In this document: positions 169-48,840 of the stretch, in pieces | How positions within the stretch are numbered: the stretch's first letter is position 1 | Layout: each line of letters opens with the position of its first letter | NCBI RefSeq assembly: GCF_003058465.1 | Contig: NZ_CP028901.1 | Location: forward strand, 2,666,001-2,730,000 | Direction: 5' to 3' | Origin: Orrella marina | GTDB lineage: Bacteria; Pseudomonadota; Gammaproteobacteria; Burkholderiales; Burkholderiaceae_B | DNA: 64,000 nt | Notes under the pieces: model-generated | The model's input: only the letters and a program-made list of their open reading frames with translations | Databases searched by the model: none | Told to the model about the DNA's origin: nothing | Program-made: the position numbers and the translations under genes

Positions 169-1212
169 CTATTCCTGCCCGACCACCACAGCAGGATGAT
201 GCCAGTCGCCCGTCACTGAAACGGGCAATTTCGATCGTCGCAGGATAATGTTGACACCAGGCACGGTCAGACCCTGGCCACTTCGCTGCGTGTCCACATC
301 AAACAGAAACGAGACCGTCTGATTGTTAAGGTCGACCTCACCAGACACCAGTTCAACATTTGGTCCTGCACCAACCAGCAAAAAGGAGGTTAATGTTGCG
401 ACGCCCGATTCGAGCTCCCACTGGCCGCGCACCGTTTCCACCTGCAGGGCATCACCATCTAGATAGTTGCTTTCTCTGAGCCATCGCGACAGACCCGCAT
501 TCAGGAATGACTCACCAACCGACAGATCATCCGACTCGAAGCGGACCTGACCTGTCGCATAGGTCAGCCCCAGACTCGCCTCATCATCAGCGTCAGACCG
601 AGCTTTCAAATTGAAAGCTCCCGCGGCTTTTCTAGCCTGCACCAGCATCTCCAGGCCACGCGATGCGTCACATTGTTGCCACGTCAGTCCATTGATCGTC
701 AGTTCGTCAACCTGTAGTTCAGCGTGCTGTGACATCCAGCCTGTATCGCGGCTGGCCAGCCACCCTTGCAGGCTCTTTAACAAGCCTTCCTGGTCGCCTG
801 TTGCCTGATCGCCCCGAGGCAAACCCTGCATGATTCTGAGTTCATCCAACTGCACCACCGGAAACAAAATCTTTCCTGTAAAGAGCGATTGCCAATCCAG
901 CACCCACTCCACCCTCTGAGCTCCGATGTGAACAGGGTCCTCTTTCACCCCTGTGTCGGCCAGACAGGCTTGTGGAACACGTCCGAGATTCGCTGGCGCA
1001 ACCAGACCAGAAGCCCGAACAGTCATCATGGGAAGCAGATCAACGTCGACCGACCCACGCACTTCAATGTCAGGATCAACTGTGGCGCGCAACGCGCGCT
1101 CCAGCATCCAGCCAGCCCCGGTGGATGTTTTGATGGTGACAAGCACCAGCAAACATGCACCCAGAGCCAACAGGATGACTCCACCTAGCAGACTCAATAG
1201 CCACTTCGTCAT
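169..1212 (-). CDS. AsmA-like membrane-anchored protein
   Basis: A protein of 347 aa with one N-terminal membrane segment (about residues 4-27) followed by a long, beta-rich, presumably periplasmic part. The residues just after the membrane segment (ALRATVDPDIEVRGSVDVDL, then LLPMMTVRASGL) follow the start of AsmA-type proteins, which act at the envelope in outer-membrane and lipid homeostasis. It is shorter than E. coli AsmA (about 617 aa), and no AsmA C-terminal domain is obvious. It lies 30 bases downstream of the methyltransferase on the same strand and is probably the last gene of the four-gene minus-strand run. The AsmA relationship is a family-level inference; the substrate is unknown. 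Confidence 0.5.
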   Translation of the reverse strand: MTKWLLSLLGGVILLALGACLLVLVTIKTSTGAGWMLERALRATVDPDIEVRGSVDVDLLPMMTVRASGLVAPANLGRVPQACLADTGVKEDPVHIGAQRVEWVLDWQSLFTGKILFPVVQLDELRIMQGLPRGDQATGDQEGLLKSLQGWLASRDTGWMSQHAELQVDELTINGLTWQQCDASRGLEMLVQARKAAGAFNLKARSDADDEASLGLTYATGQVRFESDDLSVGESFLNAGLSRWLRESNYLDGDALQVETVRGQWELESGVATLTSFLLVGAGPNVELVSGEVDLNNQTVSFLFDVDTQRSGQGLTVPGVNIILRRSKLPVSVTGDWHHPAVVVGQE

Positions 1213-1242
1213 ATTCTCCTGCGCTTTGACAGGACAGCCTGT

Positions 1243-2109
1243 TTATGAGGACTGCCCCGCCGCAAATAGATCCAGATGTCCGATCGATCCGGACGTGCTA
1301 TCCAGCCGAAAGGCCAGCCAGTCATTGATATCCGGCATTCCAAGCTGGTGCATCTTGCCCGCGGCAGCAGCCACGCCTTGCAGCAACTGATGATGCAAAC
1401 GCGCGTCACCTGCTTCAAGATGCCATGTACTGTCGCCTTTTACCACTACCATGCCTTTGCGGGTGAGTTGTTGCTCGAGAATCGAGACAGCCTGCCAGCC
1501 AGCAGCTGGCCCAAACCCCTTGTCGGTCAACTGGTGCGCATTGAACGCCTCGACAACCTCCACATCCAGGGGATGCACCGGCGTCCATTGCATGCGCCCG
1601 TCATAAGTCAGAACCGTATACAGCGGGCAGGAAAGACGCTCACAAAATGTCGTGAGCCACGAGGCCGAAACCAGATCAAACAACGCCGAGGCTGTCAACA
1701 GATCAGCCTCGAACATGCCTTGCACTGCTTCAACATTCTCTGCCAGATCCGCCGCCACGAACGCGACCTGAATTTCGCATACTCCTTTGCGAACAGTCAG
1801 TGAGGAGGTTGTATCCTCCAAGACCATATCGGCCCAACCGCTGATCGCGTGCCGCGCGGCCTCCAGCAGGATCGGGTCATTGTCAACGAGCCGCCACGAC
1901 TGCTCGCGCCCCAGCAGAGGCGCCACGGCCCGCAGATTCGACCCCGTGCCACAACCGATATCCACCACATTTAGCCGGCTGAGCGAGCGGCCATGAACGC
2001 GGCGCAATTCGCCAAGCATGGCATTCCTGACAGCCACACTCCGGCTGGCATGGTCTATTGGCTCCCTCAATCCCAGCCAGCCCGAAGAAAAACCCGTCAT
2101 GTCCCTCAC
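1243..2109 (-). CDS. Class I SAM-dependent methyltransferase
   Basis: A protein of 288 aa with a class I methyltransferase fold. The SAM-binding motif I is VVDIGCGTGSNLRAV (about residues 47-61), followed by an acidic loop (WRLVDNDPILLEAA) that would bind the ribose of SAM, and by FDLVSASWL as the motif IV region. The methyl acceptor cannot be read from sequence. It follows the ABC transporter with a 37-base gap and is in the same orientation as the OpgH-like gene. I infer that it may belong functionally to the pteridine-type genes on the other side of the OpgH/ABC pair (5.9-10.5 kb), because that set otherwise lacks a methyltransferase. That link needs comparative support. Confidence 0.75.
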   Translation of the reverse strand: MRDMTGFSSGWLGLREPIDHASRSVAVRNAMLGELRRVHGRSLSRLNVVDIGCGTGSNLRAVAPLLGREQSWRLVDNDPILLEAARHAISGWADMVLEDTTSSLTVRKGVCEIQVAFVAADLAENVEAVQGMFEADLLTASALFDLVSASWLTTFCERLSCPLYTVLTYDGRMQWTPVHPLDVEVVEAFNAHQLTDKGFGPAAGWQAVSILEQQLTRKGMVVVKGDSTWHLEAGDARLHHQLLQGVAAAAGKMHQLGMPDINDWLAFRLDSTSGSIGHLDLFAAGQSS

Positions 2110-2146
2110 CCTTAAGCATTATGTCGTGTTGCCACTGATTCGATCA

Positions 2147-3952
2147 CTACTGTGCCAGACTGGAACGACCAAACTGTCTGTCAACCATCTGCGCAAAAGC
2201 ACCTTTAGCCCGAGCCAGTTCCTCAAATGTACCTGATTCGACGATCTCGCCATCATCCAGTACGACAATCCGGTCTGCACGCCTGACGGTTGCAAGCCTG
2301 TGAGCAATGACAAGGGTGGTGCGTCCTTGCCTGGCACGTTCAATCGCCTCCTGCACGCTGGCCTCGGTTACCGCATCCAGTGCACTGGTCGCCTCATCAA
2401 GTAGCAGGATGGGTGGATTCTTCAGCAAGACTCGTGCAATTGCCAGGCGCTGACGCTCACCGCCCGACAGATGTCGCCCTCTTTCCCCGGCGAGCGCATC
2501 AAACTGGGCGGGCATCCGTTCAATGAAATCGAGTGCGTGGGCCTGGCTGGCTGCCACTCTGAGCTGCTCTGGATCTGCATTCGGGTCACCCACCATCAGG
2601 TTCTCGGCGATCGACCGATTAAACAACAGTGCCTCCTGCGAGACTACACCGAGATTTCGTCGTAGGCCGGTCAAGGTCATATCCCGAATGTCCAGACCAT
2701 CGATCAGCACTCGCCCTTGCTGCGGGTCGAACAGTCTATAGACCAGTGACATGGCAGTCGACTTCCCTGCGCCAGAGAGCCCCACCAGCGCAACCGTCTG
2801 ACCCGGCTCGATACTCAGATTGAACGCGCGCAAGGCACTTCGTCGTCCGTCGTAACTGAACGTGACCTGATCAAATTTGATCGCTCCAGAAAGCCGCCCA
2901 GGATCCCTTGCATTCTCCGCTTCTGCAACACCCGGCTGGCTGTCCAGCACCTCGAAAAACTCGACCAGTTTTGGTGCTTCCATTGAAAGCCGGTTTGCAA
3001 AGCTGACAGTCTGTTCAAGACGAGAGATGATCACCCCGGAGAACCCGATGAACGTGACGATCTCGCCAACCGTAGCAAGACCACGAGAGAACAGGAACAG
3101 GCCAATGATCAACATAGCCAGCACCGTCAAGGTTGTGGCGGCCCGGACCAGAACCGTGACGATCGCCCACCACCAAAGCACCGGAAACTGGGCACTGATC
3201 ACCTGCTCGCTGAGTTGACGCAGGCTGCTGACTTCCGCCTGGATTCGCCCAAAACTCTGAACCAGGGTCACATTGCCCAGCGTATCAGCCGCAAATTCGG
3301 CCAGATTTGAATGATGGCCCTCAACCGAACGCTGCATTGATTCGGTACGCCTCAGGATCAGACGAGTCAGAGCGATAAACACCGCACCAAGAACCAGGAG
3401 CAGCATCCCCATCCGCCAGTTCAAATACAGCGCAACTGGTACCAGCACGATGGCTGCGGAGAATGCACCGAAGTAATCTCTGAAGAACCCCAGTAACAAG
3501 GCCCCGATTGAATCAGTCCCCTGCAACATGATCTTGAGCAAACGCCCTGAATGACGGGCATCACGGTGATGAACCGGTAATTGCAGAACATGTTCGAAAT
3601 AGTCGCGCAACACTTCGTGTCGCCGCCGGTGTGCCAAACGATCCGCAAACAGCGCGACACTGGCGCCCGCCATGATCGCGATCAGACCGACCAACACCCA
3701 GGCACCCAGTAACGGATAAAGCTGTTGCCAGAGAGCGGACGGCAAACCACTGGATGTCTGGTCAACTTGCCCCGCCGCCCGGCTCAGAGCATCAATCACT
3801 TTGCCAAACAAAATGGGCTCGGATAGCGTTGCCACAACCACGAGCAGGTTGGCACCAATCAGCCTGGCAGCCGTCTGTCGCTGACTGCCCAGCAAGCGCA
3901 ATACTCGAAGATAAATCTGCACAAAACCCGAAGTGCGTCTTTGTGCCATCAC
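2147..3952 (-). CDS. ABC exporter, fused permease and ATPase, NdvA/ChvA-like
   Basis: A 601-aa half-transporter with six predicted membrane helices in the first 330 residues and a C-terminal ATPase. The ATPase has Walker A GLSGAGKST, the signature LSGGERQRL, Walker B ILLLDEATSALD and a switch histidine (IAHRLATVRRADRI). Length and architecture match the type I exporters that move cyclic beta-glucans (NdvA/ChvA) and the related MsbA group; it would act as a homodimer in the inner membrane. Its start overlaps the end of the OpgH-like gene by 4 bases (ATGA), so the two are translationally coupled. This supports export of the glucan, or another product, made by that enzyme. The substrate is inferred from this neighbour only. 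Confidence 0.8.
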   Translation of the reverse strand: MMAQRRTSGFVQIYLRVLRLLGSQRQTAARLIGANLLVVVATLSEPILFGKVIDALSRAAGQVDQTSSGLPSALWQQLYPLLGAWVLVGLIAIMAGASVALFADRLAHRRRHEVLRDYFEHVLQLPVHHRDARHSGRLLKIMLQGTDSIGALLLGFFRDYFGAFSAAIVLVPVALYLNWRMGMLLLVLGAVFIALTRLILRRTESMQRSVEGHHSNLAEFAADTLGNVTLVQSFGRIQAEVSSLRQLSEQVISAQFPVLWWWAIVTVLVRAATTLTVLAMLIIGLFLFSRGLATVGEIVTFIGFSGVIISRLEQTVSFANRLSMEAPKLVEFFEVLDSQPGVAEAENARDPGRLSGAIKFDQVTFSYDGRRSALRAFNLSIEPGQTVALVGLSGAGKSTAMSLVYRLFDPQQGRVLIDGLDIRDMTLTGLRRNLGVVSQEALLFNRSIAENLMVGDPNADPEQLRVAASQAHALDFIERMPAQFDALAGERGRHLSGGERQRLAIARVLLKNPPILLLDEATSALDAVTEASVQEAIERARQGRTTLVIAHRLATVRRADRIVVLDDGEIVESGTFEELARAKGAFAQMVDRQFGRSSLAQ

Positions 3953-5718
3953 CTGCTCTCGGGGGCAACATGATTCGGGCCTGGCAGCGTGCTGATCACG
4001 GCCATGCTGCGGGCGATCTCTTCAAGTAGTCGTGGCGGCCTGGTCTCCTCAGGCAGACACAGCAGGCGATGGCGAACCAGCCATTCCCCAAGTTTCGGTC
4101 GAGAAGTCAGTACGGCCAGCGGAATGGCTAACCAGAGTCCGCCCATGAACAGGCTGGCAATCAGAATGGCGCCCGCCCCCATGTCGAATACAGGCCATGC
4201 CATCACCACACCCACGAGCGTATGAAATCCGAAACTCCTGATTGCATCCAGCCAGTCAATCCTGTGTGCCTCGCGATTCTGTGATGCCCAGGTAATCCGC
4301 TTGCCAGCCAGAAGCCCAAACAGAAACACGCTCTGGGACACCCACAGAATCGGGGTGACCATCAAAGCAAACAGAATCTGCAATAGCAATCCTGTGACGA
4401 AACGAATCGCGCCACCAAACGCCTTGCGAGAACTCGGCCGGACCAGTACACCAATAGCACTGGCCAGTTGAGGCAACAGCATCATAGTCATGACTGCCAA
4501 CAACAGGACACCCGCATGCGTCAGATCAATCTGCTCCAGTAGCGAAGAATCTGTACCGAGCGTCCAGGAGACCATGCTCAGCAAAACGATCCAGGCTGGC
4601 GCCCCCGCGAACATGAGAATGGCAAGCAGCAACTGTACCCGGCTCGTGAATTTGAGCCCCGTCATCGACAACAGGTGCACATATTGCATGTTGCCAGCGC
4701 ACCACCGAAGATCTCGCTGAATAAACTCAACCAGCGTTGGCGGGTTCTCTTCGTAACTCTGATCCTCTAGCGGAAATACGCGGACCTCATATCCCGCTCG
4801 CCGCATCAGAACTGCCTCGACCTGATCATGACTCAGTATGTAGGATGACTTGCCGTGGCGATCAGCCAGGACAGGAAGCCGGCATCCCTCAGAAAACGGT
4901 TTGATGCGCAGGACCGCATTGTGCCCCCAGTACGGTCCACAATCTCCCTGCCACCAGGCGCTTCCGAGCGTATAGGAGCGCATACCGAGTCGCATACCAA
5001 ATTGAAACAGGCGCGTAAACGCACTCCTGGACGGCAAACCGACAACCAGTCCCTGCAAGATGCCGATCTGAGGGTTGGCTGTCATGACACGGACCAGTCT
5101 TTCGATTGCGCTGGCATCCATCAGACTGTCAGCGTCCAGCACGAGGGCGAACGTATGCAAATGCCCCCAGCGATCGCAGAAGTCTTCAATATTGCCCGCC
5201 TTGTATGCGCGATTATTATCCCGCCTGCGGTAAGTTACGGAAATCTTTCCAGCCCACTGGTCGGCCAGCACCCCGAACATCCTTTGCTCCATTGCGGCCA
5301 CGGCGACGTCAGTGGTGTCGCTCAATACGTACACATGGAACTTGTTGTGGTAAGGACTCTTGCCCAGACTCGAGATCATCGCCTGCAGGTTTCTGACAAG
5401 ACGATCCGGCACCTCGTTGCGGATACAAAGCAACAAGGCTGTTGACTCGGTCAGTGGAAGGTCCTCCGGCGTCTGGGCAGCACCAGCGTTGACAACGCGA
5501 AGCGGGTTGCGACTCAACAGGTCTATCAGCAAACCGATTGAGGCGTTCCAGAAGCCAATCACTGTCCACGGCAGAACACATGCAAACGCAACCACGATCA
5601 CCCAATGAAACCAGGAAGCCGAGGGACCGGCCGGTAAAACCGTGATCATCAGCCAGACCAGAGAAAGGACGGTCAGCAGGACAAGCGAAACGAACAGGAC
5701 ACGACGACGCGTCATCAT
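3949..5718 (-). CDS. opgH: Glucans biosynthesis glucosyltransferase H, short form
   Basis: A 589-aa inner-membrane GT2 enzyme. Two helices lie in the first 60 residues. The cytoplasmic GT domain carries LDADSLMDASAIERL (the D-x-D metal site), SHDQVEAVLMRRAGYEV and the QRDLRWCAGN motif (the Q/RxxRW element of processive glucosyltransferases). Several helices follow after about residue 365. OpgH/MdoH polymerises the beta-1,2-glucose backbone of osmoregulated periplasmic glucans from UDP-glucose. E. coli OpgH is about 847 aa; this one lacks most of the N-terminal extension, as do alphaproteobacterial forms. No opgG is seen beside it; the partner is instead an NdvA-like exporter in a 4-base overlap. 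First gene of the minus-strand run, divergent from the dehydrogenase gene. Confidence 0.85.
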   Translation of the reverse strand: MMTRRRVLFVSLVLLTVLSLVWLMITVLPAGPSASWFHWVIVVAFACVLPWTVIGFWNASIGLLIDLLSRNPLRVVNAGAAQTPEDLPLTESTALLLCIRNEVPDRLVRNLQAMISSLGKSPYHNKFHVYVLSDTTDVAVAAMEQRMFGVLADQWAGKISVTYRRRDNNRAYKAGNIEDFCDRWGHLHTFALVLDADSLMDASAIERLVRVMTANPQIGILQGLVVGLPSRSAFTRLFQFGMRLGMRSYTLGSAWWQGDCGPYWGHNAVLRIKPFSEGCRLPVLADRHGKSSYILSHDQVEAVLMRRAGYEVRVFPLEDQSYEENPPTLVEFIQRDLRWCAGNMQYVHLLSMTGLKFTSRVQLLLAILMFAGAPAWIVLLSMVSWTLGTDSSLLEQIDLTHAGVLLLAVMTMMLLPQLASAIGVLVRPSSRKAFGGAIRFVTGLLLQILFALMVTPILWVSQSVFLFGLLAGKRITWASQNREAHRIDWLDAIRSFGFHTLVGVVMAWPVFDMGAGAILIASLFMGGLWLAIPLAVLTSRPKLGEWLVRHRLLCLPEETRPPRLLEEIARSMAVISTLPGPNHVAPESR

Positions 5719-5898
5719 TGAAGATCCGGAAAGTAAAGGCAGGAGTCAAACCGCTCGGGCAGGCTTTCGAGTGCGACAGTCAAACAAGATCGCGAGACAT
5801 GGCAGCTTCCATTCAAGCTCACCCAATCGGGCACGAATTCACCAAACGCCCTGCAGAACCGCGTTGCGCGACCTGCACTGTGACAGTTTGTTGCACCC

Positions 5899-5904
5899 TA
5901 TAAT
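5899..5904 (+). promoter_or_regulatory. Candidate sigma70 -10 box for the pteridine-type gene run
   Basis: A perfect TATAAT lies 78 bases before the proposed GTG start of the dehydrogenase gene, within the 260-base divergent region facing opgH. No good -35 stands at 17-base spacing (CACTGT at 5876-5881 is poor). The box is therefore a plausible but unproven start of the transcript for the dehydrogenase, PTPS-like and glycosyltransferase genes. If correct, any translation start near 5904 is excluded, which favours the downstream GTG. Confidence 0.3.
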
Positions 5905-5981
5905 TGAATTGCTTTGATCAGTATAGGGCAGCGCCCTCAGCCAGCGGAACAGTATTCCGCAACCGAATATGGGTTTATTGC

Positions 5982-6986
5982 GTGCAAACCACACCGCGCC
6001 AAACCAGGGCAATCTGGTACGTCAGTCCAGGACAGGCTGAGATACGGACAGAAGATCTGGAGAATCCAGAGGATCCGGGTGAGCAGACATGTCTTGTGCG
6101 CGCCGTCTACAGCGCAATCAGTCGCGGAACCGAGTCCCTGATCTTTCATGGCCGGGTCCCCGCATCCGAGTATGAGCGTATGCAGGCTCCTTTCATGGGC
6201 GGCAAGTTTCCGTTTCCGGTCCGGTATGGTTATTGCCACGTGGGACAGGTTATCCAGGGCCCTTCGTACCTGCTCGGCCAGTACGTATTCTCACTTAGCC
6301 CCCACCAGACCCTGTTACGTCATCAGTCGTCAGCACTCGTTCCGGTGCCACCTTCGGTCAGTCCCAAGCGTGCGGTACTCGCGGCGAACATGGAAACAGC
6401 ACTGAACGCGGTCTGGACGGGCAAGCCGTGTGCATCTGATCGCATCGCTGTCGTAGGCGCAGGACTGATTGGATTGCTGGTCGCTTATTTGTGCCGCGAC
6501 CTGCCCGGTGCGCAAGTCACTGTTATAGACCCGCAGCCGAGTCGGGCCAGCGTTTGCAAGCAACTTGGGCTCAACTACTGCGAGACCACGGAGGGAACGG
6601 ACAATTGCGACGTCGTGTTTCACGCCAGCGCGACTGCAGCCGGACTATCCAGCGCGCTGGCGCTTGCCGGAAACGAGGCAAGCGTCGTCGAACTAAGCTG
6701 GTACGGCGACCAAACGGTTCCCGTTGCACTTGGGCAGGCGTTCCATAGCCAGCAGATCAGGCTGATATCGTGTCAGGTCGGCCACATCGAATCCTCCCAT
6801 GCTCCACGCTGGAACTATCGCCGCAGACTGACTGCGGCGATGAGCATGTTGTCAGATCCTTGCCTGGATGCACTACTTGAGACACCCATCCCGTTTGAAA
6901 GTCTGCCTGAAGAAATTTCCAGCATTTTTAAACCTGGCTCGGATCGTCTGTGCCAGGTGATCCAGTACCCTGACGGAGTGAATTAA
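5982..6986 (+). CDS. MDR-family dehydrogenase lacking zinc ligands (BchC-like)
   Basis: A medium-chain dehydrogenase/reductase of 334 aa from the GTG at 5982; the open frame runs back to a TTG at 5904, which sits on a TATAAT box and is unlikely as a start. The NAD(P)-binding motif VVGAGLIGLLVAYL is intact. Where zinc MDR enzymes have their Cys-x-x-Asp and Gly-His-Glu catalytic elements, this protein has SAISRGTESLIF and VRYGYCHVGQVI, so the catalytic zinc site is missing, as in BchC-like members. It is followed after 2 bases by the PTPS-like gene and then by the glycosyltransferase, forming a tight operon. Substrate unknown; a redox step on a pteridine or sugar side chain is an inference from the neighbours. 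Confidence 0.7.
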   Translation: MQTTPRQTRAIWYVSPGQAEIRTEDLENPEDPGEQTCLVRAVYSAISRGTESLIFHGRVPASEYERMQAPFMGGKFPFPVRYGYCHVGQVIQGPSYLLGQYVFSLSPHQTLLRHQSSALVPVPPSVSPKRAVLAANMETALNAVWTGKPCASDRIAVVGAGLIGLLVAYLCRDLPGAQVTVIDPQPSRASVCKQLGLNYCETTEGTDNCDVVFHASATAAGLSSALALAGNEASVVELSWYGDQTVPVALGQAFHSQQIRLISCQVGHIESSHAPRWNYRRRLTAAMSMLSDPCLDALLETPIPFESLPEEISSIFKPGSDRLCQVIQYPDGVN

Positions 6987-6988
6987 TC

Positions 6989-7399
6989 ATGTTTGCTGTT
7001 GAAGTTCGCGATCACATCATGATCGCCCACTCGTTTCGCGGCGCGGTGTTTGGCCCGGCTCAGGCGCTGCATGGCGCCACGTTTGTCGTTGACGCAGCGG
7101 TGTTCTCCACGTCGCTCGATGAGAACGGCATCGTGATCGATATTGGACGCGCGCATGAGGTGCTGAAGTCACTGCTTGCTCCGATCAACTACCGCAACCT
7201 GGACGAGGTGGAATTATTCAAAGGGCAGAACACAACCACCGAATTCCTGACCAAATACCTGTTTGACGGTCTTGCGAAGGCGGCCCGCAATGGCGAGCTC
7301 GGCAGGAAGGGCGAGGACCTTGATTCAATCAAGGTCCTGATTTCCGAATCGCACGTCGCACGGGCCTGGTATGAAGGCAAACTGTGGCCCCAGTCCTGA
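6989..7399 (+). CDS. PTPS/QueD-fold protein with degenerate active site
   Basis: A 136-aa protein with the 6-pyruvoyl-tetrahydropterin synthase / QueD fold: IMIAHSF at the first zinc histidine, a LHGA segment where the family has LHGH, VIDIGRAHEVLKSLL, INYRNLDEV where the family has LDHRNLN, NTTTEFLTKYLF, and a closing VLISESHVARAWYEG with the substrate-binding Glu. The catalytic Cys upstream of LHGH, one zinc His and the Asp/His of LDH are all replaced, so normal PTPS or QueD chemistry is unlikely. Dihydroneopterin-like or diaminopyrimidine-derived substrates remain possible. It sits between the dehydrogenase (2-base gap) and the glycosyltransferase (16-base overlap). Confidence 0.75.
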   Translation: MFAVEVRDHIMIAHSFRGAVFGPAQALHGATFVVDAAVFSTSLDENGIVIDIGRAHEVLKSLLAPINYRNLDEVELFKGQNTTTEFLTKYLFDGLAKAARNGELGRKGEDLDSIKVLISESHVARAWYEGKLWPQS

Positions 7400-8553
7400 C
7401 ATTCGCCTACCCGGGTGATCTCGACACCCTGACGGGCGGGTACCTCTATGACAAACACATCATCCACGAGCTGGAAAACCTGGGCTGGACCGTCAAACGA
7501 TTGAGTCTGGGCGACGCATTTCCATTTTCTGATGCGGCAGCCCTGGCAGCTGCCGCAGATCAACTGGCAATCGTTCCAGCCGACTCACTACTGGTGATTG
7601 ACGGTCTTGCCCTTGGTGCTATCGGCCCACTCGCCAAAGTATTTGCCCGTCGCACTGGTGCTGCTGTCACAGGATGCGCCAGCGCCCCCATATCCAGAGG
7701 CTTTGTAGCACTGGTACACCACCCTCTCGGACTCGAATCCGGTCTGAGTCCGGAACAGTCCACAGCGCTGCTGGCATCGGAAGCACAGGCGCTGGCACAC
7801 GCCCGGCATGTCATCGTCAACAGTCCGACCACTGCAGCCACACTCGAATCTTTGTTCGCCATTGGACCAGATCGAGTTTCCGTTGTCGTTCCCGGCACTG
7901 AACGCCCGGCGCTTGACACGCAGGCCTCGCACAACGATGGAGAAGTGTCGTGCCGCGAACACTCTGCGTCACCCATCCTGCTGAGCGTCGGATCCATCAT
8001 TGCGCGCAAAGGATACGATGTTCTGGTTCAAGCCCTGGCATCACTCCAGACGCTAGACTGGGAGCTACGGATCGTCGGCGACCCCGATCGAGACCCCATC
8101 GTCTTCGAGGCGCTAACAACCCAGATTACACGACTCGGAATGAGCGACCGGATTCGACTACTTGGTGCACTGGAGCCCTCGGCTCTCGAACATCAATACG
8201 CACAGGCAGATCTTTTTGTGCTTGCGTCGCATTACGAGGGATATGGCATGGCCTACGCACAGGCCATTGCCCGGGGACTACCGGTCATCGGAACAACAGG
8301 CGGCGCGACCGCTCAGACGGTCGCCCCCGGAACCGGCATTCTGGTCGAACCCGGTGATGTCGAATCGCTTTCAAAGGCAATTGCCCAGTTGCTCTCGCAT
8401 CCCGAGCAGCGGCAGAAGATAGCTCAGGCATCGCGCAAGCATGCGCACGAACTTCCTTCGTGGATCGAATCAGCACGACGGTTCAGCGAGTCGCTCATCA
8501 AAAGCGACACACAACCAGCTGCTCCTGACCCAGCGCAAACGTGCTCGCACTAA
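7384..8553 (+). CDS. Glycosyltransferase family 4 (GT-B fold)
   Basis: A 389-aa GT-B glycosyltransferase from a GTG start that overlaps the PTPS-like gene by 16 bases. The N-terminal half begins with LTFAYPGDLDTLTGGYLYDK, as in GT4 enzymes. The C-terminal nucleotide-sugar domain has ILLSVGSIIARKGYDVLVQAL, LRIVGDPDRDP and the E-x7-E region ASHYEGYGMAYAQAIARGLP with GTTGGA. It would transfer a sugar from an NDP donor to a small acceptor. Translational coupling to a PTPS-fold protein suggests a pteridine-like acceptor, in the manner of cyanobacterial pteridine glycosyltransferases, but this is inference. Its 3' end overlaps the convergent RibD-C gene by 56 bases. Confidence 0.8.
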   Translation: MAPVLTFAYPGDLDTLTGGYLYDKHIIHELENLGWTVKRLSLGDAFPFSDAAALAAAADQLAIVPADSLLVIDGLALGAIGPLAKVFARRTGAAVTGCASAPISRGFVALVHHPLGLESGLSPEQSTALLASEAQALAHARHVIVNSPTTAATLESLFAIGPDRVSVVVPGTERPALDTQASHNDGEVSCREHSASPILLSVGSIIARKGYDVLVQALASLQTLDWELRIVGDPDRDPIVFEALTTQITRLGMSDRIRLLGALEPSALEHQYAQADLFVLASHYEGYGMAYAQAIARGLPVIGTTGGATAQTVAPGTGILVEPGDVESLSKAIAQLLSHPEQRQKIAQASRKHAHELPSWIESARRFSESLIKSDTQPAAPDPAQTCSH

Positions 8554-9205
8554 ATCGCCTGGCAGCAGCAAGGTCCCGGACCGGCGCAAGCCGTAATCCG
8601 GGCGTACCCTCACCCAGCAGGACTGGCGCCACAATCAGATGCAAGTAATCGAGGCAGTCCGCCTGAAGGAATCGGGTCACAGTTGTTGCCCCACCCTCGA
8701 CCAGCACCTTGTACCATCCCTGACGAGCCATCCAGTCCAGTAATTCGCCTGGCGCAATGTCGCCCCCTTGTTCGCCAAGACTGACAACTTCCACGCAGTC
8801 AGGCAACCCTTTGACATGGGTGACCCCCGCTGTCATCAGTACCTTGCGCACATCTCCTTCACTGAACATGCGGGCCTCTACTGGAACACGCCCCTTCGGA
8901 TCAATCACAACACGGTCCGGGTCAGGTCCTTCAACCAGTCGAACATTCAGGCGTGGGTCATCGGCGTGAACAGTCCCGACTCCCACCAGCACGACATCGG
9001 CCCAGGCGCGCAAGCGATGTAGATGCTCCAGCCCTGCCTGACCGTTAATGTACTTGGACTTTCCAGTCGCAGTCGCGATCTGTCCGTCCAGAGATTGACC
9101 CAGTTGTGCAATGACAATCTGGCCACTTTGCGGGAACTTGTCAATAAGGATTTCAGACCAAACAGGCCCGGTGTGCGCTTTTTGTTGCATAACTGTAAAA
9201 GTCAC
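8498..9205 (-). CDS. Stand-alone RibD C-terminal domain reductase
   Basis: A 235-aa protein made only of the RibD C-terminal (DHFR-like) reductase domain. IAQLGQSLDGQIAT at the start of the domain, VLVGVGTVHADDPRLNVR, and VLVEGGATTVTRFLQ for NADPH and substrate are present. The deaminase half of bifunctional RibD is absent. Such reductases turn the ribosyl side chain of a diaminopyrimidine phosphate into ribityl. With the GTP cyclohydrolase II gene divergent from it, the pair could make a ribityl-diaminopyrimidine without deamination. The annotated start is GTG at 9205; ATG at 9190 is an equally good choice. It converges on the glycosyltransferase gene with an unusual 56-base overlap. Confidence 0.8.
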   Translation of the reverse strand: MTFTVMQQKAHTGPVWSEILIDKFPQSGQIVIAQLGQSLDGQIATATGKSKYINGQAGLEHLHRLRAWADVVLVGVGTVHADDPRLNVRLVEGPDPDRVVIDPKGRVPVEARMFSEGDVRKVLMTAGVTHVKGLPDCVEVVSLGEQGGDIAPGELLDWMARQGWYKVLVEGGATTVTRFLQADCLDYLHLIVAPVLLGEGTPGLRLAPVRDLAAARRFSASTFALGQEQLVVCRF

Positions 9206-9307
9206 TGCTTATCAGAATGGACATTGGGGTCACTACTAGGGTTTAGCAGTAAGATTACTTCGTTGACAGATTCTTCTGTCTGTGATTTCCCTTCCTCCAT
9301 TACGCTC

Positions 9308-10477
9308 ATGAATATTCCTGCAGCAACTCTTTCAGAAATTTTAAGGGCAGAATCGACTGCCCTGACTCGTCTGGATCGTGTGATCAGCGAGTTACGACGA
9401 TCCGGAATCATTCTGGTTCGTGCGGGTCAGGAAGCATATTGGATCAGTTCTGCGGAGACTGTCAACGAAACGGCTCTTGAAACTTTCATGCAACTTGCCA
9501 GTGGCGAGCCCAGTCTGGTCATTACCGGTCAGCGCGCAAGTCGCCTTGGATTTGACGTGGAACGTGACGCGACTGTCTACTGCCTGCACGGTTTTGACGT
9601 CATCACACAAACGCTGATCGAGCGAATCGCTGATCCAGCGAGTCCGCTCTGGGCATCGGAAGCAGCAGCGTTTGATCTGGAAGACGTCACGGTGACCCGA
9701 GGTGGAAAAGTCGCCCAGGCTGTCATCGCCTTGTCCAAGCACGCAGGCCTGCTTCCGGCGGTACTGGCTACGAAAGCTGATACGTCAGGATCGTTTGACA
9801 GCGTGCTGGAAATTTCATCTGAAGAAATCTGGCAAGGTCTGCATGAGGCGACTCGCCAGTTGCAAGTTGTTGCTCAGGCTCGAGTCCCTCTCGAGGACTC
9901 GGAAAATACGCGCATCGTCGCCTTCAGACCTCTTGACGGTGGCTCGGAGCATCTGGCAATCATTGTCGGTGAACCAGACCTGAATGCACCCGTTCTGATC
10001 AGGATTCATTCCGAGTGCTATACCGGGGACCTGCTTGGCTCGCTGCGGTGTGATTGCGGACATCAGTTGCGAGGAGCGATCGCTCTGATGGCAACGGCTG
10101 GCAGCGGCATTGTTCTCTACATGGCACAGGAAGGTCGCGGCATCGGACTGATCAACAAACTGCGTGCCTACAAACTTCAGGATCAAGGACGTGACACAGT
10201 CGATGCCAATCTGGACCTGGGATTTGAGGAAGACGAAAGGGATTATCACGGTGCCGTGCAGATGCTCAAGCTGCTAGGAGTCAAACAAGTGAGACTTCTG
10301 ACCAACAATCCGCGTAAAGTGGACTCACTGACCAGTCTTGATGTCGAGGTGGTTGAGAGAGTTGCCCACATTTTTCCGGCTAACCGTCATAATCGTGGCT
10401 ATCTGTACACCAAAGGATCGCGCAGCGGTCACCTGTTCAATCTCACAGAACTTGAAACGGATCCGCACAAGGCCTGA
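9308..10477 (+). CDS. ribA: GTP cyclohydrolase II with extra N-terminal domain
   Basis: A 389-aa protein from ATG 9308; the frame is open further upstream, but that part overlaps the reductase gene and lacks family character. Residues from about 185 on form a complete GTP cyclohydrolase II: zinc cysteines in HSECYTGDLLGSLRCDCGHQ, the catalytic YMAQEGRGIGL, VDANLDLGFEEDERDY, and LLTNNPRKVDSL. The enzyme opens GTP to the diaminopyrimidine ribosyl phosphate. The first about 180 residues (beginning MNIPAATLSEILRAEST) are not a recognisable intact RibB. Divergent from the RibD-C reductase and ending at a strong terminator, it looks like the entry enzyme of the local pathway and not the housekeeping riboflavin gene. 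Confidence 0.85.
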   Translation: MNIPAATLSEILRAESTALTRLDRVISELRRSGIILVRAGQEAYWISSAETVNETALETFMQLASGEPSLVITGQRASRLGFDVERDATVYCLHGFDVITQTLIERIADPASPLWASEAAAFDLEDVTVTRGGKVAQAVIALSKHAGLLPAVLATKADTSGSFDSVLEISSEEIWQGLHEATRQLQVVAQARVPLEDSENTRIVAFRPLDGGSEHLAIIVGEPDLNAPVLIRIHSECYTGDLLGSLRCDCGHQLRGAIALMATAGSGIVLYMAQEGRGIGLINKLRAYKLQDQGRDTVDANLDLGFEEDERDYHGAVQMLKLLGVKQVRLLTNNPRKVDSLTSLDVEVVERVAHIFPANRHNRGYLYTKGSRSGHLFNLTELETDPHKA

Positions 10478-10503
10478 CGCCTCACCGCAGCTGACCGCCT
10501 CCA

Positions 10504-10541
10504 GTCGCCCCCAACCAAACGGTTGAGGGCGACTTTTTTTT
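10504..10541 (+). terminator. Rho-independent terminator after ribA
   Basis: The stem GTCGCCC (10504-10510) pairs with GGGCGAC (10527-10533). An inner AACC/GGTT extension surrounds a short loop, and a run of eight T follows. It ends the ribA transcript just before the convergent histidine kinase gene. Confidence 0.9.
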
Positions 10542-10563
10542 CACCCGCAAAGCAAGCACACGC

Positions 10564-12423
10564 TCAGGCAGAATCGGGCAGCCAGAGCGTAAACACAATC
10601 TGATGATCCAGAACCTGACAAGTCAGGCTGCCACCGAGCATTTGTACCAGGCGTCTGCACAGGTGCAAGCCCAGGCCGGAGCCGGACAATCCGGTCGCTG
10701 TCGGGCCTCTGACATACTTCTCGAAGATAGCCCTGCTGTCCGGTGGTTGATTCCCCAGAAACTTGTTCGTAACGGTCAGACTCGTGCCCCGAGCAAACCG
10801 TCCAGTTGCCGTACCAAGTTCAACCTTGACACGGGCCGTCGCTGGTGAATACTTGATCGCGTTGTCGACTAGATTGTGTATCACGACCGACAACAGCTGA
10901 CGATCAGAGTCCACCATCACGGAGTCGACATCGAGATCGACTTTGCCTGGCTCCAGACATGCGTCCGTGACCTCCTCAACCATCTCGGCAAGATCAAACG
11001 ATTCGTTGACAACACTCAGACGCTGCTCGTCAATCTGCGTCGACAATCTGCAACGGTCAATCACCTCGGACATGGTACGCAAGGCTCTCTCCAGACGTAC
11101 GCGCTTCTTGTCAGGGAAACTCAGAGTGTCAAGCGTTAGCTGAATCACGCTGATAGGCGTTTTAAGCTCATGAGAGAGCATGTCCATGAACTGCCTTTGC
11201 TCATCGAGCTTGAGCTGATGGTCCCGCAACCCTTGCTCGACTCGTTCGAGCTTGAGTTGGTCAGCAATCGCGCTTTTCTCCATCTCGCTAGAACGTCTGT
11301 AAAGAAAGACGCCCATGATGATGGCACTGACCACGCCTTGCGTGGTGAGCGCGTTTATGTAGAAATCGACGCTCTGCCCCCAGCCAAGCAATGGCATGAT
11401 AACGATCGCCAGAGCCAGTGCCAGTGCGTTGTAGGCGACTCTCAGGGCAATACGTCCTGGAACGGCATCCACCTTCGTGGAGTAACCGAGCCATAGCAAT
11501 GTTGGAATGAAAAACAACAAATTGATCGTGCCGAGCTGCAACCCCTGTCGCGGGAATCCAAACAGAATCAGCGTGATTTCGATTGCTGCCAGGAAGATCA
11601 AAAAATCCAGGACTCGAACTGCCCACCGGCTGGGCTGAAACGGCCGGATCAGCATGCGATGAAAGAGCATGGTCACAGCGATCGACCCCTGAATAATGAC
11701 GGAGGTCAACAGATCGAGATTGAATGAGTGCGGCAGAAACACCGCCAGATAACCCATCAGCGCCAGACTGAACAGAATCTGCATGACCTGAACGGCCACG
11801 AACCAGCCAACCAGCGCCTCCCGTCGTACGATGAAGTCGCTAGTCGCCCATAACAGAATCGCAAACATCAGGCCGATGAAAGGAACCTGAAAGCTCTGAG
11901 TCCGCATGTTCTGGACATACCAGTCGGAAAACGTCAGCACCTGGACCTCGATCATGGCCGTGCTGGTCGTCTTGACCCGCAGGTAATAGGTAGTTTCCTG
12001 TCGGGGCTCAATCTCGAAAATATGAGATTCGTTCAGGCGCTCGTCACCCTGATTGTGCACCCTGTCTCCCGCAACCTGGGTGCTCCAGACACCCGGTACC
12101 GCAGTGGACGTGTAGAGCGTCAGAGTGTCCAGAAAATGCGGCTTGACCGTCAGATACAGCGGTTTGTCTGACGCCTTCACGCGGATACGTAGCCATATGA
12201 CCGAGTCCGTATAGCCTTCGCTGAGCATGCCATCGAAGACGGTGAACGATTGCGCCATGACCTCGTCAACCGTCAGTCTTCCTGACGAGTCATCATAGTA
12301 CGCAGTCTGCAGCAGAAAACTCTGTGCCGACGCCGCGCAGGAGACGGCCAGCATCACCAGACACATCAGAAATCCGCGAAACATCCGATCGACGATCAAT
12401 TGCTGGCCTCGACTACGTATCAC
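10564..12423 (-). CDS. 7TMR-DISM sensor histidine kinase, orphan
   Basis: A 619-aa membrane histidine kinase. A signal peptide (residues 1-33, ending SCAASAQS) is followed by a periplasmic 7TMR-DISMED2-type beta sandwich (to about residue 165), seven predicted membrane helices (about 180-390), a short coiled coil, the HisKA domain with DMLSHELKTPISVIQ (phosphoacceptor His), and the ATPase domain with VVIHNLVDNAIKYS (N box) and GSGLGLHLCRRLV (G box). DISMED2 domains are thought to bind carbohydrate-like ligands. No response regulator gene adjoins it, so its partner must be elsewhere. It converges on ribA across the terminator. The ligand is unknown. Confidence 0.85.
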   Translation of the reverse strand: MIRSRGQQLIVDRMFRGFLMCLVMLAVSCAASAQSFLLQTAYYDDSSGRLTVDEVMAQSFTVFDGMLSEGYTDSVIWLRIRVKASDKPLYLTVKPHFLDTLTLYTSTAVPGVWSTQVAGDRVHNQGDERLNESHIFEIEPRQETTYYLRVKTTSTAMIEVQVLTFSDWYVQNMRTQSFQVPFIGLMFAILLWATSDFIVRREALVGWFVAVQVMQILFSLALMGYLAVFLPHSFNLDLLTSVIIQGSIAVTMLFHRMLIRPFQPSRWAVRVLDFLIFLAAIEITLILFGFPRQGLQLGTINLLFFIPTLLWLGYSTKVDAVPGRIALRVAYNALALALAIVIMPLLGWGQSVDFYINALTTQGVVSAIIMGVFLYRRSSEMEKSAIADQLKLERVEQGLRDHQLKLDEQRQFMDMLSHELKTPISVIQLTLDTLSFPDKKRVRLERALRTMSEVIDRCRLSTQIDEQRLSVVNESFDLAEMVEEVTDACLEPGKVDLDVDSVMVDSDRQLLSVVIHNLVDNAIKYSPATARVKVELGTATGRFARGTSLTVTNKFLGNQPPDSRAIFEKYVRGPTATGLSGSGLGLHLCRRLVQMLGGSLTCQVLDHQIVFTLWLPDSA

Positions 12424-15571: not shown

Positions 15572-17200
15572 ATGTCATTCACCATTGCTCTTGTCTCGGG
15601 CCTGGCTCTGTTTGTACCGAGCGTCCTGATTCTCTACGCGATCGCGCTCACGGCCAGACAAGCCACTGACTCGTCTGCCCATGCAGCATGGAAAAAGTTC
15701 AGGCGACTCACTGCCATCACCGCGCTCGCATCCCTGATCGCAGCTGTGGCAGTCTGGGTAGCTCACCCAGGCACAGACCCTGTCTGGATCATTCAGGACT
15801 GGCTTGGGTTAACCCGCTTCTCAGTCATCTTCGCCTTGCTGGTGCAGGGTCTAGGTCTTGTGATCAGCACCTTCTCGGCTCGCTATCTGGAAGGCGAGCA
15901 CAGACAGATCTACTACATCACCTGGCTGGCATGCGTACTTGGTTCGGTTCAAGTGCTCATATTTGCACAACACTGGATCATCCTGATCACCGCCTGGTCT
16001 GCCGTTGGCCTCTCCATGCAGAAGCTGCTCTGCTTTTACCCGGACCGCCCGTTTGCGCTTCTGGCCGCCCGCAAGAAGCAGTTGGCCGACCGGATTGCAG
16101 ATCTTCTGCTCATACTGGCCGCAGGACTGATCTGGTTCGAAGTGGGGCAGGGTTCGCTTGCCGCGCTGGAAAGCCACCTCGCAGCAGGCTCGGCAGGACT
16201 GACACTCCAGATTGGCTCAATACTGCTAGTCGTGGCCATCCTCATTCGCACCGCACTGTTGCCAGCCCATGGGTGGCTGACACAGGTCATGGAGGCCCCG
16301 ACTCCCGTGTCCGCACTGTTGCACGCAGGTGTTGTCAATCTTGGCGGATTTGTGCTGATACAACTGGCTCCGCTACTTGACTCAGTCATCTGGGCCAGAT
16401 GGATCCTGATTGTGATGGGCCTTGCCACCACATTGCTGGCCGGACTGGTGATTCTGACCCGTGTCAGCATCAAGGTGCGACTCGCATGGTCAACCATCGC
16501 CCAGATGGGATTCATGGTGCTCGAGTGTGGTCTTGGACTTTATACCCTGGCAGCCCTTCATCTGATTGGTCACTCGCTTTACAAAGCACACGCATTCCTG
16601 CGAGCGTCAAGCACTGTACAGGACACCCGGGTACGTCGCATGCATCAGCCTGTCCAATACACCTGGCCAAACCTGGTAGCCGCTCCGGCACTGGCCTTGC
16701 TGATCACGATTCCAATGATCAGCCTGCCAGTCCAAAGCACCGGTGCGACGGGTCTGCCAATCTGGTGGGCTGTCTTGTTGGCCATGGCCTGGTCGCCCTT
16801 GTTCTGGCAAGGCCGGCAACCCGCGAACCTTCACCGGTTCTCCTTCAGAATCCATCTCTGGAAACTGGCAAGCACCTTCGCACTCATTGTCATGCTCTCA
16901 CTGATCATCAGGATCACCCATCTGGTGCCACTCGGGGTGACTGACTCACCCGCACCGATCGCTGGATGGGTGAGCGCGCTGGCAATGAGCGCTTTCTACG
17001 CAGTTCTGGTCTGCATGCAGGTCTGTCCTGCCAGGCTGGAAACGCTCAGGCGCTGGAGCTACGCCGGGTTCTATGTTGACGAGCTCTATACCCGCATGAC
17101 GTTGCGTCTGTGGCCGGGTCAGTGGATGCCCGATCAATCAAATCGACGCACAGCCAGCCGGCTCTGGATGGCAGGCGGCGATAGGCCGACCATGCCCTGA
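15572..17200 (+). CDS. dabB: DabB, NuoL/NdhF-like membrane subunit of DAB transporter
   Basis: A 542-aa polytopic membrane protein of the proton-conducting NuoL/MrpA family, with about 13 predicted helices. Conserved elements include the charged helix TALLPAHGWLTQVMEAPTPVSALLHAG (written here in part: LPAHGWL, then APTPVSALLHAGVVN), KVRLAWSTIAQMGFM and LHLIGHSLYKAHAFL. No other complex I genes are present. A NuoL-like protein directly before DabA is the signature of the DAB energy-coupled inorganic carbon accumulator, in which DabB is thought to supply ion flow for CO2 hydration by DabA. The gene starts 200 bases from the divergent LysR gene; dabA follows after 62 bases. Confidence 0.88.
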   Translation: MSFTIALVSGLALFVPSVLILYAIALTARQATDSSAHAAWKKFRRLTAITALASLIAAVAVWVAHPGTDPVWIIQDWLGLTRFSVIFALLVQGLGLVISTFSARYLEGEHRQIYYITWLACVLGSVQVLIFAQHWIILITAWSAVGLSMQKLLCFYPDRPFALLAARKKQLADRIADLLLILAAGLIWFEVGQGSLAALESHLAAGSAGLTLQIGSILLVVAILIRTALLPAHGWLTQVMEAPTPVSALLHAGVVNLGGFVLIQLAPLLDSVIWARWILIVMGLATTLLAGLVILTRVSIKVRLAWSTIAQMGFMVLECGLGLYTLAALHLIGHSLYKAHAFLRASSTVQDTRVRRMHQPVQYTWPNLVAAPALALLITIPMISLPVQSTGATGLPIWWAVLLAMAWSPLFWQGRQPANLHRFSFRIHLWKLASTFALIVMLSLIIRITHLVPLGVTDSPAPIAGWVSALAMSAFYAVLVCMQVCPARLETLRRWSYAGFYVDELYTRMTLRLWPGQWMPDQSNRRTASRLWMAGGDRPTMP

Positions 17201-17262
17201 AAGACTGAGTTCGAGACGACTCACACCTGCACGTCAAAAATCATTTCTTACGGAACGGCATC

Positions 17263-40569: not shown

Positions 40570-40935
40570 TGCGTTCGACGACTACTACGACCTCTGCTGA
40601 CTTCTCGCTCCGGCTCAACGCCGTTATACCCTTTCAGGATCAAGGCGAGATCTCCCCAGGTAAGGGTTCACGCACACCTTCGTCGCACAACCGCCGCATC
40701 TACACCACCTCGCCTTGGACACAAGAGCTTTGCGGTCTATGGCCCGCTCGCTCTGCTCGGCAGTGCCTTGTATGCGATTTCTGTTCGTCGGCTCGCAACT
40801 TACGCTCCACGCTTGGCCCCTCGCTTCGCTCTCCCCACGATCGGTCACCCTTTCGCAGTTGCGCTTCACTTTGCTCACTGTGACCAGCTCGCAGCGGGAC
40901 TTGCACCCGCAGGTGTGCGCCCATGCTGGGCGCAC
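40570..40935 (-). mobile_element. 5' remnant of a bacterial group II intron
   Basis: Read on the minus strand, the fragment starts GTGCGCCCAGCATGGGCGCA (a perfect hairpin), followed by GGGTGCAAGTCCC, GGTCACAGTGAGCAAAGTGA, and further on CGAGCCGACGAACAGAAATC, ACCTTACCTGGGGAGATC-like sequence (40655-40670) and AGAAGTCAGCAGAGGTCGTA, an order familiar from the 5' part (domain I up to the ORF domain) of bacterial group II introns. No reverse transcriptase frame, domain V or 3' end follows, and the sequence up to pgi (40410-40569) shows nothing recognisable. Its 5' end abuts the T run of a Rho-independent terminator, the site preferred by class C introns. Identification is from remembered motif order; the left boundary is approximate. 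Confidence 0.6.
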
Positions 40936-40937
40936 AT

Positions 40938-40970
40938 AAAAAAAGGCCCGGGATCGTAAGATTCCGGGCC
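40938..40970 (-). terminator. Rho-independent terminator of the small RNA gene
   Basis: On the minus strand GGCCCGGAAT pairs with ATCCCGGGCC (one G-U pair) around a six-base loop and is followed by seven T. The group II intron remnant begins three bases beyond the T run. Confidence 0.88.
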
Positions 40971-41211
40971 AAATCCACCAAAGGAGGAGGGTGGAGGAGA
41001 CAACCTTGTGTTGATGAACCACCCCCAGTTGCACAAGCAGCTTTTACGACTGCGCGCAGGGGAGGAAGTTCCCGATAACCAACAGAACATCACTCTCACG
41101 TTTCACTCTGTCGCTCCTTGAATGCAACTCGCTAAATTTTCGTAGCTTACCTTTCAAAAAGCAGTGAAATGAAGTGTTTCTAGATCTTTAGCTAACGTCT
41201 TCATCAACCAC
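40938..41211 (-). ncRNA. Candidate small RNA or short dual-ORF mRNA
   Basis: A strong promoter and a strong terminator define a transcript of about 270 bases with no normal gene. It holds two tiny frames: 41204-41154 (16 aa, MKTLAKDLETLHFTAF) and, behind a good AAGGAG, 41106-41044 (20 aa from GTG, VKRESDVLLVIGNFLPCAQS). It also has CU-rich stretches ACTTCCTCCCC and TCTCCTCCACCCTCCTCC (about 40983-41000) that resemble anti-Shine-Dalgarno loops of the cuckoo/CcsR sRNA family, which often sit behind a short ORF. Whether it acts as RNA, as leader peptides or as both cannot be decided. It is upstream of, and on the same strand as, no other gene; coq7 ends 144 bases before it. Confidence 0.5.
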
Positions 41212-48687: not shown

Positions 48688-48740
48688 AAGGACTCGCTAT
48701 AAAAGGGATCAAAGACAACCAGTATGTTGTCTCTGCCCCC

Positions 48741-48840
48741 CTGTCCTTTTGCCTGAGAGTTGCCCGGTCAGAAAGAAGACTGAACCGGTTTGCACCTTCG
48801 GCGCCCGCATGCAGTCAGCGGGTCTCTCCAGAGTCGTGTG
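48741..48840 (-). promoter_or_regulatory. Glycine riboswitch upstream of gcvT
   Basis: On the minus strand the core order is GGAGAGACCCGC, GGGCGCCGAAGGTGCAAACC, a variable arm (GGTTCAGTC...GACCGGG) and ACTCTCAGGCAAAAGGACAG. The GCCGAAGG and CTCTCAGGCAAAAGGACAG blocks are the conserved halves of one glycine aptamer. Only one clear core is visible; the sequence just upstream (48841-48880) could form a remnant of a second. It lies 54 bases before the gcvT start and should turn the operon on with glycine. Confidence 0.92.

Follow-up and report, generated by a model that had tools for sequence, protein, structure and literature searches.

In this work, we analyzed a 64,000-nt stretch of the Orrella marina genome (NZ_CP028901.1, positions 2,666,001-2,730,000; assembly GCF_003058465.1; hereafter the window) and found at positions 1243-10477 a cluster of eight genes that, judged from their sequences, appear to put riboflavin- and pterin-type enzymes to use in an undescribed, conserved pathway. 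The products are a class I S-adenosylmethionine (SAM) methyltransferase (MT), an NdvA-like ABC exporter, an MdoH-family membrane glucosyltransferase (GT2), an MDR dehydrogenase, a protein of the PTPS/QueD fold (T-fold), a GT4 glycosyltransferase, a RibD_C reductase, and a GTP cyclohydrolase II (GCH II; RibA). Because the set recurs in diverse bacteria, it probably represents a real pathway. On balance, we lean toward the view that this pathway is dedicated and widespread and leads to a methylated, glycosylated 2-amino-4-oxo pyrimidine or pteridine that is conjugated to a glycan or lipid at the membrane. A first-pass annotation of the window had named seven of these genes, and the open reading frame (ORF) listing and domain scans placed all of them where it had put them; the MdoH-family gene, which lies between the ABC exporter and MDR genes, had not been counted there.

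The co-occurrence of the cluster genes is far from chance. Among 398 Pseudomonadota genomes (the phylum sample), 27 have a PTPS match, which leaves 26 others when O. marina itself is set aside. In 20-kb stretches around these PTPS genes (shorter at contig ends), with partners counted within 9.5 kb, the MDR dehydrogenase was found at all 26 loci, GT4 at 25, MT at 24, RibD_C at 22, RibA at 11, and MdoH and a CDP-alcohol phosphotransferase at 12 each. The first-pass idea of a cluster is borne out by these counts. In an order-level sample of 200 genomes, five are PTPS-positive including O. marina; adding the four others gave 30 loci, with MDR dehydrogenase near PTPS in 30, GT4 in 29, MT in 28, RibD_C in 26, RibA in 12, and MdoH in 15.

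A scan of genome contigs for PTPS relatives gave a similar picture for the best 80 of at least 525 relatives, many of whose loci are cut by contig ends (MDR dehydrogenase 76, GT4 79, MT 70, MdoH 69, RibD_C 50, and RibA 35). At the 42 full-length loci among these 80, the corresponding counts are 40, 42, 42, 38, 24, and 19. The order and strands of the window's eight genes are repeated exactly in 14 of the 80 loci; 12 further loci keep an uninterrupted multi-gene part of this order, and a 13th has PTPS alone. A variant order (MdoH- ADH+ PTPS+ GT4+ MT+) is present in 44. The gene set also occurs on plasmids, for which 14 of 20 matching records were compared. The core of MDR, PTPS, GT4, MT, and RibD_C was found in Methylosinus, Rhizobium, Thiodictyon, Microbacterium, Palleronia, Peteryoungia, and Agrobacterium (L091, L092, L095, and L097-L100), the core minus RibD_C in Streptomyces fungicidicus (L094) and Neorhizobium (L101), and the core minus GT4 in Rhodobacteraceae SC52 (L093). 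Furthermore, the evolutionary distances of PTPS correlate with those of its partners (r 0.57-0.78), although common descent alone would also produce some correlation.

The T-fold protein (6989-7399, + strand; PF01242, 72.3 bits) matches SCO6650 of Streptomyces coelicolor (PDB 3d7j) with an E value of 3.6e-38 and 71 identical residues among 130 aligned, and the two proteins have 26 of 27 family-invariant residues in common. E120, H14, and H28 are invariant in 30 sequences. The motif HGA stands in place of the HGH of QueD, such that the third zinc His is absent, and the catalytic Cys is absent as well; with its invariant residues and these two losses, the protein is of the SCO6650 type. The Streptomyces plasmid relative that resides in the same gene set (L094) matches SCO6650 with 266.7 bits over 132 residues, and the solved orphan SCO6650 therefore belongs to the T-fold family of the cluster. 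The PDB labels this structure uncharacterized. SCO6650 is said not to catalyze the PTPS reaction, and structural and enzymatic work on SCO6650 and SCO6655 reportedly left the pathway open. At least 7999 clustered proteins resemble the window T-fold protein. In three Streptomyces plasmid loci (L096, L102, and L103), the PTPS neighbors are genes for an MBL-fold hydrolase, a cupin, and a sigma factor, which represent a second context for the SCO6650-type family.

The RibD_C reductase (8498-9205, - strand; PF01872, 128.3 bits) has no deaminase domain in the Pfam scan, as the first-pass annotation had stated. Residues of the DG, T-x3-D-x-P-x-L-x-VR, and EGG motifs are each kept in at least 90% of 83 sequences; with the RibD_C domain and the DG, T-x3-D-x-P-x-L, and EGG motifs, the window protein is predicted to be a RibD-type pyrimidine reductase. 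A cluster-type copy, scoring at least 140 bits with the window protein, is present in 26 of the 30 other PTPS-positive genomes, and in a 27th genome (G104), where the contig ends, the match is partial (90.8 bits). Housekeeping RibD proteins score at most 75 bits in other genomes and 89 bits in O. marina. Since the reductase has no deaminase, the 2-amino-4-oxo (guanine-type) ring would be retained in the proposed route.

The RibA of the cluster (9308-10477, + strand; PF00925, 203.1 bits) has the equivalents of Escherichia coli C54, C65, C67, Y105, and R128, and thus the zinc Cys triad, Tyr, and Arg that mark a GCH II; its score with NF006456 is 285.6 bits, below the cut-off of 464. The start at 9308 is preferred over the listed ORF start at 9023 because of the lengths of relatives and the ATG at 9308. 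The N-terminal extension has no Pfam match and, by eye, resembles a decayed RibB. Tyr occupies the Tyr105 position in 42 of the 43 cluster RibA proteins readable by pattern (53 in all), the window protein included, and the normal GCH II product is therefore expected from the latter. GCH II of the SCO6655 type reportedly releases a formylated pyrimidine. The only Met-type RibA of the set is that of L094 (Streptomyces), which lies near PTPS and a creatininase-family gene. A pairing of creatininase-family genes (as ArfB-like deformylases) with Met-type, formyl-keeping RibA was considered but is not supported: 12 loci pair a creatininase with a Tyr-type RibA, and MftE outscores ArfB in all four creatininase proteins scanned.

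The GT4 glycosyltransferase (7384-8553, + strand; PF00534, 111.6 bits) has Tll1590 (6kih, 70.2 bits) and a phosphatidylinositol-monomannoside mannosyltransferase (3okc, 68.7 bits) as its best solved relatives. At residue 293 (8260-8262), where 90% or more of its relatives carry the second Glu of the EX7E motif, this protein has Gln. The MT (1243-2109, - strand; PF13649, 27.4 bits) carries an N-terminal WLxLREPxD motif, in which W11, L12, R15, D19, and R23 are invariant in 27 sequences, including that of the window. Its AlphaFold model has a pLDDT of 94.6 and no close solved relative (the top two matches have TM scores of 0.55-0.63 at 11% identity), and the fold comparison pointed to no substrate.

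On the basis of the gene content, the RibA and RibD_C motifs, the loss of metal-site residues in the PTPS and MDR proteins, the conserved neighborhood, and the link to glucan genes, we infer the substrates, step order, cyclization, sites of methylation and glycosylation, product, and export as follows. By family chemistry, RibA would open GTP to 2,5-diamino-6-ribosylamino-4(3H)-pyrimidinone 5'-phosphate, and RibD_C would reduce the ribosyl to a ribityl chain while the 2-amino-4-oxo ring is kept. The glutamates of T-fold enzymes bind a guanine-like (2-amino-4-oxo) ring. The zinc-less MDR protein and the SCO6650-type T-fold protein, with its conserved Glu anchoring this ring, may then modify the intermediate and probably cyclize it to a pteridine, which, or the pyrimidine itself, the MT and GT4 would decorate. 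In the lineage of the window, the glycosylated unit may be joined to or carried with a glycan or lipid by the MdoH-type glucan synthase and the NdvA exporter; in other lineages, a CDP-alcohol phosphotransferase and a flippase-like protein may act at the membrane instead.

The membrane part of this proposal is suggested by the genes beside the cluster. The NdvA/ChvA (glucan exporter) family ABC exporter (2147-3952, - strand; NCBIfam NF010178, 763.8 bits, cut-off 733) and the cluster-type MdoH/OpgH-family glucosyltransferase (3949-5718, - strand; NF003958, 507.8 bits, above the cut-off of 419) are encoded by genes that overlap by 4 bases; the MdoH protein also scores 629.8 bits with NF003963, under that model's cut-off of 884. 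In the phylum sample, 12 of 26 genomes carry MdoH no more than 10 kb from PTPS, compared with 0.15 expected from uniform placement of the 32 MdoH copies in those genomes; a tail probability for this proximity assumes independent genomes, which these are not. The 12 genomes span seven numbered families (f60, f62, f78, f88, f92, f101, and f114). MdoH is within 5 kb in eight of them, and the other four (f60 and f62) have a more distant relative (31-37% identity) 5-10 kb off. Also, mdoG adjoins the cluster in six of 11 loci from the class of O. marina, two of them without MdoH close by, and in a seventh genome of this class a separate contig (L172) holds MdoG together with genes for RibA, creatininase, FkbM, and MdoH. 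In the O. marina genome, MdoG (PF04349) has no match and the cluster gene is the only MdoH match; therefore, this genome has no canonical OpgGH pair. An NdvA match lies near PTPS in 27 of the best 80 loci, 21 of them at 52% identity or more and six at 28-33%, the latter being probably other ABC transporters.

Of 44 loci examined, 18 have a CDP-alcohol phosphotransferase within 5 kb of PTPS, and 15 of these 18 also have a flippase-like gene at this distance. Each residue of the phosphotransferase motif D-G-x2-A-R-x8-G-x3-D-x3-D occurs in 85% or more of 16 sequences. None of the 44 loci has both MdoH and the phosphotransferase within 5 kb. Mutual exclusion of the two as a rule was nevertheless rejected, as an MdoH relative of 31-37% identity lies at a distance of 5-10 kb in the phosphotransferase loci L121, L126, L131, and L136, and the two genes stand side by side in L173, where RibD_C, FkbM, CDP-alcohol phosphotransferase, and MdoH genes lie together about 60 kb from the PTPS gene. 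The alphaproteobacterial versions L092, L099, L100, and L117 add sulfatase-fold and flippase-like proteins, and all but L100 an FkbM methyltransferase; these additions possibly serve to decorate a glucan or lipid.

The presence of MdoH here, and of mdoG, CDP-alcohol phosphotransferase, and flippase-like genes elsewhere, argues for a glycan- or lipid-linked product over a simple soluble pteridine glycoside. The chemistry suggested in the first-pass annotation is supported in part, as the enzymes fit GTP opening, reduction, methylation, and glycosylation. A soluble pteridine or pyrimidine glycoside, acting as an ultraviolet (UV) screen, redox cofactor, or signal, with the glucan and lipid genes as mere frequent neighbors, is conceivable but on the unlikely side. 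It would suit the six of 26 loci in which the 5 kb on either side of PTPS contain no MdoH and no CDP-alcohol phosphotransferase, and a tetrahydrobiopterin glucosyltransferase (9v0l) is a weak solved relative of GT4 (24.8 bits). However, mere neighborhood sits poorly with the excess of MdoH across seven families, the adjoining mdoG, and the flippase-like genes that accompany most of the phosphotransferase loci.

A special case of the pathway that we favor would be a FolE-independent pterin route, in which the MDR dehydrogenase oxidizes the ribityl C2' and ring closure by the T-fold protein yields 7,8-dihydroneopterin phosphate. Oxidation at C2' would give a 1-deoxypentulosyl amine, as FolE makes by Amadori rearrangement; on paper, its N6-CH2-CO and the 5-amino group close to a dihydropterin, and the retained 2-amino ring suits the T-fold glutamate. 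The evidence from the MDR protein (5904 or about 5982 to 6986, + strand; PF00107, 26.7 bits, below the cut-off of 31.8) points in both directions. BchC is a secondary-alcohol dehydrogenase, and bchC is the best NCBIfam match of this protein, although at 50.3 bits it is far below the cut-off of 291.25. In the comparison of its model, many dehydrogenases match with TM scores of about 0.7 and no single one stands out; among them are alcohol dehydrogenases and the sorbitol, xylitol, L-idonate, and galactitol-phosphate dehydrogenases, and also plant alkaloid MDR reductases, which are zinc-less. Against the route, this protein lacks the zinc ligands of polyol dehydrogenases: in a comparison by eye with the MDR consensus, two zinc ligands are replaced by S73 and Y110, which are invariant in 21 sequences, and the catalytic Cys, His/Glu, and third ligand expected of a zinc-dependent MDR alcohol dehydrogenase do not occur together in the window protein. 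We regard this special case as rather unlikely. Slightly less likely again is its extension to an envelope pterin glycoconjugate, that is, a FolE-independent, methylated, and glycosylated pterin that is presented on a periplasmic glucan or phospholipid or is exported together with it; we know of no such kind of molecule elsewhere.

Alternatively, RibA and RibD_C may be riboflavin genes displaced from their operon, with an unrelated glycan cluster as neighbors. The O. marina genome has two GCH II-family genes, namely, the cluster RibA and a housekeeping RibBA (L008 8963-10267, - strand). The latter is of the RibBX type (PRK14019, 599.4 bits) and lacks the equivalents of all three zinc cysteines (C54, C65, and C67); the cluster RibA is therefore the only intact GCH II found in the genome. 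RibBX domains are described as having no GCH II activity (PMC10012899). The ribBX-ribH pair lies outside the window, some 7 kb to the left of the cluster (RibH: TIGR00114, 127.1 bits), and the first-pass statement that no lumazine synthase is nearby was an effect of the window edge. A family-level sample of 200 genomes has 21 PTPS-positive members including O. marina, of which 18 belong to its genus (nine) and genus g325 (nine). A high-scoring RibA (over 190 bits) adjoins PTPS on the same contig in 16 of these 18; in the other two, it lies on another contig (G660) or was not found in a fragmented genome (G764). In none of the 18 genomes did a second high-scoring RibA turn up. The other three PTPS-positive genomes (G599, G625, and G745) have a high-scoring RibA on contigs other than that of PTPS.

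Other observations make displacement improbable. As the first-pass annotation held, the cluster is no riboflavin operon: ribB, ribE, ribH, and a deaminase-bearing ribD are elsewhere in the genome. That annotation would have counted the lack of a further ribA and ribD against a separate pathway; on this point the evidence is divided, as a full RibD (L009) is encoded elsewhere, as is RibE, but the genome yielded no second GCH II with the zinc cysteines. Near PTPS, RibD_C occurs in 26 of 30 loci, with 25 copies of the cluster type by score and the 26th cut by a contig end. All 11 phylum-sample genomes from the class of O. marina keep a separate RibA with intact residues; in four of them, a further RibA shares the contig of PTPS and lies close to it, and in a fifth (G283), one lies on another contig with cluster genes. 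Moreover, among 22 relatives without the PTPS gene (17 + 5), 12 show one RibBX-like or weaker match and no other GCH II, and in the three of these read for residues (G003, G053, and G098; L167-L169) the zinc cysteines are absent. Such genomes therefore seem to cope, and we do not claim that the cluster RibA is essential. Finally, a queuosine or tetrahydrobiopterin gene set is hardly credible: 6-carboxytetrahydropterin synthase is the name given to the T-fold gene in most annotated plasmid records, and several of these mention queuosine, but the window protein scores 35.5 bits with the QueD model against a cut-off of 89.25 and lacks the QueD residues described above, queC, queE, and queF are not among the cluster genes, in agreement with the first-pass annotation, and the genome has its own QueD-type gene elsewhere, between ORFs that by eye resemble queC and queE.

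Several points weigh against the dedicated, membrane-linked pathway that we favor. Substrate and product are known for no cluster member. The loci share descent and the best 80 are the nearest relatives; the counts are therefore not independent. Fifteen of the 26 phylum-sample loci have no RibA near PTPS, and in O. marina this enzyme may also feed riboflavin synthesis. RibD_C is absent in four of the 26, three of these genomes having a housekeeping-type RibD only and the fourth a cluster-type copy about 60 kb off, and in 18 of the 42 full-length loci, mainly of the Roseibium type. The three Streptomyces plasmid loci with a second gene context have PTPS without any matched partner, and an Arthrobacter plasmid locus (L104) has PTPS with the MDR dehydrogenase and GT4 only. 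NdvA was found near PTPS in none of the 26 phylum-sample loci and is therefore a lineage-specific partner, and the actinobacterial loci that were read showed no MdoH match.

In the window, the cluster is arranged as two back-to-back units, one running leftward (MT, NdvA, and MdoH) and the other rightward (MDR, PTPS, and GT4), followed by RibD_C, which faces GT4 and diverges from RibA. The PTPS and GT4 genes overlap by 16 bases. The MDR gene likely starts with the GTG at 5982 rather than at 5904, which would leave a divergent intergenic region between MdoH and MDR at 5719-5981. The divergent region between RibD_C and RibA (9206-9307) contains an inverted repeat (GACAGA-N4-TCTGTC, 9265-9280) that is a possible operator, as judged from its sequence. 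Promoter-like sites in 1000-10700 and terminator-like matches overall showed no excess over shuffled sequence. The G+C content of the cluster (56.6%) is similar to that of the window (55.9%); composition therefore gives no sign of recent import. A phage origin was rejected, as none of 50,697 phage records matches the stretch 5904-9205 and an IMG/VR pattern scan with six peptide stretches found no relative. An anti-phage defense system was rejected as well: PADLOC, run on seven proteins (NdvA left out), gave one match of 19.7 bits, which falls on the SAM-binding stretch of the MT.

At the gathering cut-offs of Rfam, there are five matches in the window and none within the cluster. These include, at 40668-41002, a group II intron (89.6 bits) and, near it on that strand, a match of 66.5 bits to a Betaproteobacteria toxic small RNA, and also tandem glycine riboswitch aptamers (61.3 and 53.6 bits) at 48731-48953. 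Also, the stretch 15572-19830 encodes an NdhF-like membrane protein and, after it, a large DUF2309-like protein, both downstream of a LysR-like gene; this pair is a candidate DAB inorganic carbon transporter by resemblance.

If true, the proposed pathway would span Alpha-, Beta-, and Gammaproteobacteria as well as Actinomycetota and explain orphan structures such as SCO6650. It would show the reuse of riboflavin enzymes, and a new pigment, sunscreen, cofactor, or glucan substituent may come to light. Public annotation often assigns SCO6650-type T-fold genes a queuosine role that their residues do not support. Our literature search on the parts of the cluster found no account of it, no paper for SCO6650, and one metabolic-modelling paper for SCO6655, although papers beyond this search may exist; pepteridine was the only pteridine gene cluster that it turned up.

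Known systems resemble the cluster in part. SCO6650 is like the window T-fold protein in sequence and is not known to have a pathway or product assigned; the RibA of the L094 cluster, with Met at the Tyr105 position, resembles the SCO6655-type GCH II, whereas the window RibA has Tyr. The toxoflavin cluster (toxA-E) combines RibA, a RibD-type enzyme, and a methyltransferase to make a pteridine-like metabolite, and T-fold, GT4, and MdoH proteins are not known from it. It has a bifunctional deaminase-reductase, ToxE, with ToxB and ToxA, whereas the window has RibD_C without deaminase; ToxC and ToxD were not searched for. The archaeal and fungal riboflavin branch, in which reduction precedes deamination, likewise uses a deaminase-less RibD_C-type reductase on a 2,5-diamino pyrimidine, but has no T-fold, MDR, GT4, or MT protein, and our cluster has no lumazine or riboflavin synthase. 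The pepteridine cluster of Photorhabdus likewise places a PTPS-family protein in a gene cluster for a GTP-derived pteridine natural product; it differs in having GTP cyclohydrolase I and nonribosomal peptide synthetase (NRPS)-like and pyruvate-dehydrogenase-like genes, and the text describing it does not contain the word glycosyltransferase (PMC5384830). Canonical OpgGH systems for periplasmic glucans pair MdoG with MdoH, unlike the O. marina genome with its lack of a PF04349 match, yet they have the MdoH-family glucosyltransferase in common with the cluster, and several genomes of the same class carry mdoG beside it.

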